Assembly (NCBI GenBank): GCA_029782355.1
Contig: JAKOUY010000016.1
Location: forward strand, 186,001-250,000
Length of the DNA stretch: 64,000 nt
Reading direction: 5' to 3'
Source of the DNA: Actinomycetes bacterium
Lineage (GTDB): Bacteria > Actinomycetota > Acidimicrobiia > Acidimicrobiales > Ilumatobacteraceae
Shown: piece after piece, positions 14,768 through 54,177 of the stretch
Layout of the letters: every line of letters starts with the position of its first letter
How positions within the stretch are numbered: the first letter of the stretch is position 1
Notes under the pieces: model-generated
Databases searched by the model: none
What the model saw: only the letters and a program-made list of their open reading frames with translations
What the model was told of the DNA's origin: nothing
Translations under genes and position numbers: made by a program

Positions 14768-15130
14768 CCCATGGGCGCGGCCATGCGCACCACCGCACGT
14801 TCCCGCGCCCATGGGTTCGTGGCGGTGGTGGGAGGGCATGCCGGTCCCGTTGTGGCGTCCCCTGGTCCCATGGGCGCGGACAGGTGCGGACGTGCAAGGT
14901 TCCGCGCCCATGGGTTCGTGGCGGGTCGGGCGGTGGTGGGAGGGCTTGCCCGTCCCGTTCTGGCGTCCCCCGGTCCCATGGGCGCGGGAAGGTGCGGATG
15001 TGCAAGGTTCCGCGCCCATGGGTTCGTGGCGGGTCGGGCGGTGGTGGGAGGGCGTGCCGGTCCCGTTCTGCCGTCCCCTGGTCCCATGGGCGCGGCAAGG
15101 TGCGGACGTGCAAGGTTCCGCGCCCATGGG
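14768..15130. repeat. Array of four 48-bp palindromic modules separated by three similar spacers
   Basis: Eight copies of CCCATGGG occur, alternately 40 and 59-68 bp apart. Each module starts CCCATGGGCGCGG and ends CCGCGCCCATGGG (14768-14815, 14867-14914, 14975-15022, 15083-15130), so it can fold as a hairpin with 12-13-bp arms. The spacers are 51, 60 and 60 bp and nearly identical; the first lacks 9 bp. The array fills most of the 505-bp gap between dmpI and the dmpK operator. No credible gene is seen there. Origin (REP/MITE-like) and function are unknown. Confidence 0.85.
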
Positions 15131-15155
15131 TCTGAGAGGGGTCAGGGGTCAGGGG

Positions 15156-15359
15156 TCAGGGGGTGGGGTGGGCGTTGCGCTCGGCGAGGGTGTGGCCGGC
15201 GGCCATGAAGTCGGTGGGCTCGAACTCGGTGATCCACACCCGGATCGAGGCCAGCGGGGCGCCGAGGGTGTCCTGGGCGGCCTGGGTGATGGCCGCCAGC
15301 AGGGCCCGCTTCTGCTCCGGGGTCCGCCCGGCGGCCATGCTGACGTGGACCAGCGGCAT
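15156..15359 (-). CDS. dmpI: 4-Oxalocrotonate tautomerase
   Basis: It converts 2-hydroxymuconate to 2-oxo-3-hexenedioate (4-oxalocrotonate keto form). The 67-residue protein has the catalytic amino-terminal proline (Pro2, exposed after Met removal), the conserved GRTPEQK arginine at position 12, and Phe51 of the EFEPTDF segment. It is slightly longer than the usual 62-63 residues. ATG 15359 overlaps the TGA of the decarboxylase gene (TGATG), so it is the end of the dmpFGHI unit. The stop codon is followed by three TCAGGGG-type repeats on the plus strand. Confidence 0.92.
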   Translation of the reverse strand: MPLVHVSMAAGRTPEQKRALLAAITQAAQDTLGAPLASIRVWITEFEPTDFMAAGHTLAERNAHPTP

Positions 15360-23342: not shown

Positions 23343-23452
23343 TGTTCCGTCCACCCCCCCCGCCGCGCCACGCCCCACCACATCCCGCCCGCATCCCCGC
23401 CACATCCCGACCGCATCCCCGCCCCCGCTGCGGCCCCGCCCCCGCTGCATGC

Positions 23453-23537
23453 GTGCGCAACCCTTCGCATCCGACGGTTTGCGCACACATGCACGACGCT
23501 CGCGTGCGCAACCCGTCGCGTGCGTCGGTTGGCGCAC
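23453..23537. repeat. Two tandem hairpins with GTGCGCAACC arms
   Basis: Two similar imperfect palindromes at 23453-23486 and 23504-23537 each run GTGCGCAACC-loop-GGTT-(G/T)GCGCAC. They lie in the 405-bp gene-free stretch between two divergent genes, after a C-rich segment (23341-23450) in which GCCCCCGCTGC recurs. They may be REP-like elements or a bidirectional structure; no T-run is present. Confidence 0.55.
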
Positions 23538-23538
23538 G

Positions 23539-23665
23539 CGACCTTGATGCGGGGGTGGGGGGTGACCTTGATGCGCGGGTGGGGGTGACGGGGGTGGGGG
23601 TGACCTCGATGCGGGTGGGGGTGACGGGGGTGGGTGACGTGGGTGGGTGGTGTGGGTGGGCGGAT
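23539..23665. repeat. G-rich tandem repeat upstream of the SHMT-like gene
   Basis: Degenerate units GACCTTGATGCGGGTGGGGGT and GTGACGGGGGTGGG recur about six times, ending in GTGGGTGGGTGG near the SHMT-like start. G4-forming potential is obvious; no gene is seen. The promoter of the SHMT-like gene must lie in or next to it. Confidence 0.6.
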
Positions 23666-54062: not shown

Positions 54063-54177
54063 GTCCGAAGCCGGGCGGAAGGGGCGGGCGGAAGGGGCGG
54101 CGGGGGTCAGGGGCGGCGGGGCGGAAGGGGCGGCGGGGGTCAGGGGGCGGCCCTGGGGGCGGCGGGGGCGTGGGGGG
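54063..54177. repeat. G-rich repeat tract (GGCGGAAGGGGC / GGGGGTCAGGGG units)
   Basis: Units GGGCGGAAGGGGC and GGCGGGGGTCAGGGG recur several times directly behind the SDR stop codon; the stop itself lies inside a GGGGTCAGG unit. Transcribed from the minus strand this gives a C-rich tail. Similar tracts follow the stops of the glcG-like and dmpI genes. Confidence 0.65.

Follow-up and report, generated by a model that had tools for sequence, protein, structure and literature searches.

The hairpin array between the dmpI-like and dmpK-like genes of the 64,000-nt stretch analysed here (the window) is best read as a dispersed 40-bp palindrome of REP/BIME type, tandemly amplified at this place, with a cognate gene whose product joins an AbiEi part to a nuclease part of the Vsr/homing-endonuclease fold. 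We give this reading a probability of roughly 0.58. It amounts to a REP/RAYT-like system with an unrelated enzyme, and the data suggest a repeat family with a dedicated enzyme. The gene and the units are associated, and we infer that the gene mobilises them. The observations are the dispersal of the unit, its grammar, local tandem copies, a gene architecture found in five copies and in one independent case, and the matching of unit classes to gene copies in one relative (G014).

The array and its dispersal in the genome

The eight CCCATGGG cores that an earlier note had described in four modules were recovered at window positions 14768, 14808, 14867, 14907, 14975, 15015, 15083 and 15123, with spacings of 40, 59, 40, 68, 40, 68 and 40. 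All eight occurrences in the window fall inside the array, against 2.19 expected, and 0 of 100 shuffles reached eight. The natural unit is 40 nt within each 48-nt module (Table 1). Direct copies of 108 nt (period 108, 2.9 copies) stand at 94% and 90% relative to the reference copy. The spacers, which had been called near-identical, are indeed 51, 60 and 60 nt long, the 51-nt spacer being a shortened form of the 60-nt one. Pfam matches bear out the location between dmpI and dmpK homologues, with the array at the 3' end of the dmpI-like gene. The window has other repeats as well. Between array and dmpI-like gene, AGGGGTC stands in 3.7 copies (15137-15162). A gap between divergent genes contains several overlapping tandem repeats of low complexity at 23373-23660 (a 22-mer, a 36-mer and shorter ones), and G-rich tandem repeats (a 33-mer twice, with shorter periods) lie at 54086-54170.

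Table 1. Coordinates of the window array, its neighbours and the gene copies bordered by units
Feature	Position	Strand	Basis or detail
Whole array, four 48-nt modules	14768..15130	.	Core positions, repeat finding, shuffle test
Unit 1, 40 nt, TGGGCGCG-N24-CGCGCCCA	14772..14811	.	Inner part most divergent
Unit 2, 40 nt	14871..14910	.	
Unit 3, 40 nt	14979..15018	.	
Unit 4, 40 nt	15087..15126	.	
Three 108-nt direct repeats (unit and locus-specific spacer)	14821..15144	.	Local tandem amplification
Spacer 1, 51 nt	14816..14866	.	
Spacer 2, 60 nt	14915..14974	.	
Spacer 3, 60 nt	15023..15082	.	
Tautomerase gene, dmpI-like, PF01361	15156..15362	-	Pfam; stop 25 nt from array
Phenol hydroxylase subunit gene, dmpK-like, PF06099	14369..14650	-	Pfam; start 117 nt from array
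Bordered gene, own copy (G000)	C1:115998-116900		Nearest unit 140 bp 5', 15 bp 3'
Bordered gene, G032 copy			Nearest unit 111 bp 5', 35 bp 3'
Bordered gene, G009 copy			Nearest unit 93 bp 5', 27 bp 3'
Bordered gene, G014-C306 copy			Nearest unit 143 bp 5', 40 bp 3'
Bordered gene, G014-C205 copy			Nearest unit 141 bp 5', 34 bp 3'

Searched with the array, the own genome (3.79 Mb, 40 contigs) returned 74 matches. The sequence CCCATGGGCGCGG occurred exactly 98 times (2 for the reversed control), exact 40-nt units numbered 51, and modules of the form CCCATGGG-N31..33-CCCATGGG numbered 68 (0 for the reversed control), with N32 spacing in 64 of the 68. The earlier note had proposed such a genome-wide search and held that absence of the module elsewhere would count against its account; the outcome is the opposite, as the module is widely present. 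The 40-nt form TGGGCGCG-N24-CGCGCCCA was recognised as the shared unit by reading divergent versions in genomes of the same family, which a sequence model built from 55 modules had found. Within this grammar CCCATGGG is a joint, made of the end of one unit and the next half-unit, and elsewhere the joint reads CCCACGGG or CCCGTGGG.

We fetched 35 loci of the own genome, and 34 were intergenic by codon-based gene calls; the exception (L214) lies inside a gene and was dropped from the array count, which leaves 34. Every array has a private spacer that is tandemly repeated. Inner sequences had a median identity of 0.88 within arrays (n=51 pairs) and 0.54 between loci (n=1965), which indicates that the arrays grew locally from single copies and, given how much the inner sequences differ between loci, that the spread through the genome is not recent. 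An assembly artefact is the least credible explanation: tandem repeats are prone to misassembly and the exact copy number of the window array is provisional, but the element is found at dozens of loci whose spacers differ, and in other genomes as well.

Additionally, the arrays may be unevenly spread along the chromosome. By 13-mer listing, array loci number one on contig C35 (520 kb) and about twelve on C7 (851 kb). Outside arrays, CCCATGGG was found at 1 site in 343.5 kb, against 7.6 expected under a Markov model of order 2 and 2.2 under the highest order; we did not use this apparent avoidance as evidence, since its significance depends on the background model. A uniform strand polarity of the modules was likewise set aside (flip test p 0.015 with flanks, 0.19 for inner positions alone).

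Related genomes, gene placement and the arms of the unit

Exact units were found in 10 of 121 genomes of the family, with 51 in the own genome, 103 in G014 and 1-6 in each of eight others. The reversed control gave none anywhere except one in G004, and none in G014. Exact CCCATGGG pairs were absent from 80 relatives and from 396 other genomes of the order; this search missed junction variants, so the 40-nt unit and a CM search were used. At E <= 0.01 the CM search gave matches in 13 of the 48 relatives from the same family and in 1 of the 32 from other families, several of them at chance level. In a broad scan of genome contigs, the matches listed were mostly chance matches. Five loci of the gammaproteobacterium Luteimonas mephitis (L133, L145, L148, L149 and L157) carry recurring CCCATGGGCGCGA-...-TCGCGCCCATGGG or similar pairs, which are probably a separate REP-like family.

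The units of G014 belong either to class 1 (n=20) or to class 2 (n=27), and no unit combines the two, in an analysis of 47 distinct sequences with 50 of the 103 units listed. Both arms switch together between the classes, as would be expected of either a stem or a dimer site. Neighbouring units lie 51 bp apart in class 1 (3 of 3) and 61-63 bp apart in class 2 (13 of 15), that is, 40 bp plus about one or two helical turns.

Two genomes, G536 and G558, allow a comparison of loci. Two loci of G536 whose flanking genes differ share a 138-nt array block at 94.9% identity, and a third locus shares 177 nt at 83.6%. Between G536 and G558, 100 array columns are identical at an orthologous locus, and identities in the adjoining windows are 0.36-0.80 on the left and 0.92, 0.90 and then 0.24 on the right, with coding sequence mostly at 0.82-1.0. 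A second shared locus has an identical first unit and a later unit with a matching change on both sides of the core. Since array columns are identical while the flanks diverge, these arrays are conserved beyond their surroundings, by selection or by homogenisation. Full conservation of the array at one orthologous locus also fits a host function.

Gene orientation around the arrays was taken from a simple codon-based gene caller. The 35 own loci comprised 15 convergent, 15 codirectional (including L214), 4 divergent and 1 undecided. For comparison, the window and 280 kb of control stretches supplied 30 gaps of 150 bp or more without an array, of which 4 were convergent and 11 divergent (Fisher p 0.013 for convergent, 0.020 for divergent). 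The median distance of arrays was 99 bp from gene ends (n=45), against 184 bp from gene starts (n=24). None of 49 convergent gene pairs in 344 kb contained an array.

To characterise the arms we compared 57 distinct own modules, in which the search pattern itself fixes the outer 8 bp. C21 and G28 were kept in 56 of the 57. Other inner pairs were retained less often (13/36 in 24, 18/31 in 16 and 20/29 in 29 of the 57), and the alternative motifs TGCA or [TCG]CCG varied arm by arm. Together these patterns favour half-site recognition of double-stranded DNA, with inner arms that appear to vary as half-sites and not as a covarying RNA stem. Dependence within a half, between positions 20 and 22, was 0.34 bits, with 0.08 and 0.05 for the hairpin partners there; at positions 18 and 24 hairpin-partner dependence was not small (0.26 and 0.28 bits), and modules of one array are not independent. 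A protein-binding array, one of the roles that the earlier note had proposed, appears compatible with the half-site pattern and an AbiEi-type partner protein.

We also considered that the units act as RNA hairpins at 3' ends, as terminators or mRNA stabilisers between operons, which here would damp read-through from dmpI into dmpK; attenuation of read-through was another of the roles in the earlier note. The excess of convergent loci (15/35 versus 4/30) points this way, as do the predicted folds of all eight 40-nt sequences (z -2.9 to -5.0) and the array columns that G536 and G558 share next to divergent left windows. Against this, no T run of the kind that marks an intrinsic terminator follows any of the four window units within 15 nt, on either strand, own inner pairs are often broken, and only a small share of convergent gaps has an array. 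Rfam gave no match above gathering score, only mir-1304, whose 23.1 bits fall short of the threshold of 90. We regard an RNA hairpin role as improbable, and as the main constraint in the own genome we reject it, since many modules have broken inner pairs.

A gene bordered by units

One own array adjoins a 300-aa gene that has a unit on its other side too. Array loci in G032, G009 and, twice, G014 contain relatives of this gene with 50-52% identity, and all five copies met in the four genomes have units on both sides, in loci that were fetched because of their units and are thus a biased sample. The bordering units are degenerate in G009 (1-3 mismatches in 16), partly so in G032 (0-2) and exact in the others. 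Random 900-bp intervals in 280 kb of own control DNA had units within 200 bp on both sides in 0 of 28,000 cases at up to 2 mismatches and in 16 of 28,000 at up to 3, figures that are a lower bound for the genome because the control stretches are nearly array-free. In G014 each gene copy is matched to a class: class 1 alone borders the C306 copy (3 of 3 units), and class 2 alone borders the C205 copy (5 of 5 units), which is broken into two frames. The units bordering the C205 copy all face one way, so an inverted orientation is not universal. The array loci of G536 are without a gene copy, which counts against the preferred reading. At one array of G536, a DUF6036-type nucleotidyltransferase gene (L263 373-843, E 1.6e-5) lies close by; AbiEii toxins are nucleotidyltransferases.

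Residues 1-170 of the four intact proteins match AbiEi profiles (PADLOC AbiEi 3.6e-17, 1.8e-22, 5.2e-18 and 1.3e-20), and Pfam AbiEi_4 was above its cut-off in two of the four. The C-terminal rest has a weak match to MTES_1575 REase/DUF559, below the Pfam cut-off in 4/4, a family described in PMC3710099 as a Vsr-type REase. The last 121 residues, modelled with a pLDDT of 85, aligned with the catalytic domain of I-Bth0305I (3r3p_A; Z 12.8, rmsd 2.3, 96 aligned) and with Vsr (1cw0_A; Z 10.9). The whole-protein AlphaFold model had a mean pLDDT of 47 and was relied on for the C-terminal part only. No Foldseek match reached E 0.001 (best E 0.0018), and a sequence search of the PDB found nothing. 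E198, D230, E241, D243, H248 and D257 are invariant in the four intact proteins and have counterparts in all five C-terminal parts; from this conservation we regard them as putative catalytic residues. Binding of the palindrome by the AbiEi part is likely by analogy, since AbiEi antitoxins are described in PMC7319586 as binding inverted repeats and autoregulating through them. A literature search, with subscription papers and preprints largely outside its reach, found no paper linking AbiEi or DUF559 proteins to palindromic repeats.

An independent case comes from Tsukamurella. A protein search of a plasmid collection found one relative (27.2% identity over 90%, NZ_LR134454.1), by protein search alone and with no selection for repeats. 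Palindromes of 41 nt lie 62 bp before the annotated start of this gene and 22 bp behind its end; the two are 38/41 identical and inverted, and their sequence is unrelated to the 40-nt unit of the family. In shuffles of the two flanks, palindromes with 11-bp arms arose in 15 and 7 of 400. The palindrome occurs at five places in three records of the strain, none under an annotated feature, and the copies in the two other records lie one between a convergent and one between a divergent gene pair. A protein search of a phage collection gave no match, and viral contigs gave no relative.

Under the preferred reading of a mobilised palindrome with a cognate nuclease, the AbiEi part would, as a dimer, contact both half-sites of a unit, the nuclease part would cut at or near units, and repair of the break would copy units to new intergenic sites and expand them in tandem. 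The array between dmpI and dmpK would then be a bystander located 3' of a gene, and it might secondarily affect dmpI/dmpK read-through.

The same protein, or another dimeric regulator, might instead use the units as operators of a regulon with no mobility. The half-site pattern of own units would suit such a regulator, as would a unit on the 5' side of the gene, at 93-143 bp, in 5/5 copies and the autoregulation through inverted repeats described for AbiEi antitoxins in PMC7319586. We consider an operator role unlikely, if the strongest of the rival explanations, because units also lie 15-40 bp behind the gene in 5/5 copies, arrays are nearer to 3' ends than to starts with only 4/35 loci divergent, and near-identical blocks occur at unlinked loci of G536. 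Sites by which a nucleoid protein structures the chromosome, without any tie to the bordered gene, are less plausible still: the exact 40-bp core spacing (64/68 modules) and the near-invariant C21/G28 contacts would be expected of them, but they leave both the bordered gene and the patchy occurrence of units across the family unexplained.

Taken more broadly, we see about even odds for a RAYT-independent mobile-palindrome system in Actinomycetota, in which each AbiEi-Vsr fusion has a cognate 40-nt palindrome that flanks its gene and is scattered through the genome, and in which palindrome and enzyme switch together (G014 having two classes and Tsukamurella a different sequence). We know of no means of spread for most REP-like repeats that are without a RAYT. 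If the preferred reading holds, palindrome dispersal would be a convergent invention by a cognate nuclease of another fold, a supposed type of toxin-antitoxin protein would be tied to repeat maintenance, and the products of many genes now labelled 'AbiEi antitoxin' or 'DUF559' might be enzymes that mobilise repeats. The cognate nuclease would also give a concrete protein for binding and cutting tests.

Comparison with known systems

REPs are extragenic palindromes of 20-40 nt, usually in more than 100 copies. The unit described here is 40 nt long and intergenic at nearly all fetched own loci, and copy numbers are 103 (exact) in G014, 51 exact or 68 modules in the own genome, and far lower in the eight other genomes with units. 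The unpaired end tags of REPs, looked for within 8 nt of units, are rare or absent (own genome, 0 GTAG and 1 CGTC of 46; G014, 0 GTAG and 2 CGTC of 36). Palindromes in BIMEs alternate in orientation; 40-nt units stand back to back in G536/G558 and at L090, and own arrays are direct tandem repeats with spacers. The earlier suggestion of a REP/MITE-like element thus holds in that the repeat is dispersed, palindromic, extragenic and locally amplified, but neither tag nor transposase makes it a known REP. CGTC-type REPs, described in PMC3733652, are similarly palindromes without a known dedicated transposase, but CGTC is rare by the units here.

MIRU-VNTR of mycobacteria are intergenic tandem arrays at about forty actinobacterial loci, like the present arrays; to our knowledge they are not palindromic and have no partner nuclease, unlike the present repeat. 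With AbiE type IV toxin-antitoxin systems the bordered gene shares the AbiEi profile match over residues 1-170, but here this part is fused to a Vsr-type nuclease and accompanied by genome-wide palindromes. With I-Bth0305I, an EDxHD homing endonuclease, and with Vsr, it shares the modelled fold of the nuclease domain, but its DNA-binding part is different, it has no intron or intein context, and it is bordered by repeats.

The RAYT (Y1 transposase, PF01797) was found neither in the own genome nor in 12 others, one of which (G036) gave doubtful matches only, and 5 of 14 control genomes were positive. A RAYT/IS200-type transposase was therefore rejected as the partner, PF01797 being absent from 13/13 genomes searched. 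Compared with REP/BIME systems that have a RAYT, the gene bordered by the repeats here codes for a protein with an AbiEi part and a Vsr-like fold, unrelated to the Y1/HUH transposases.
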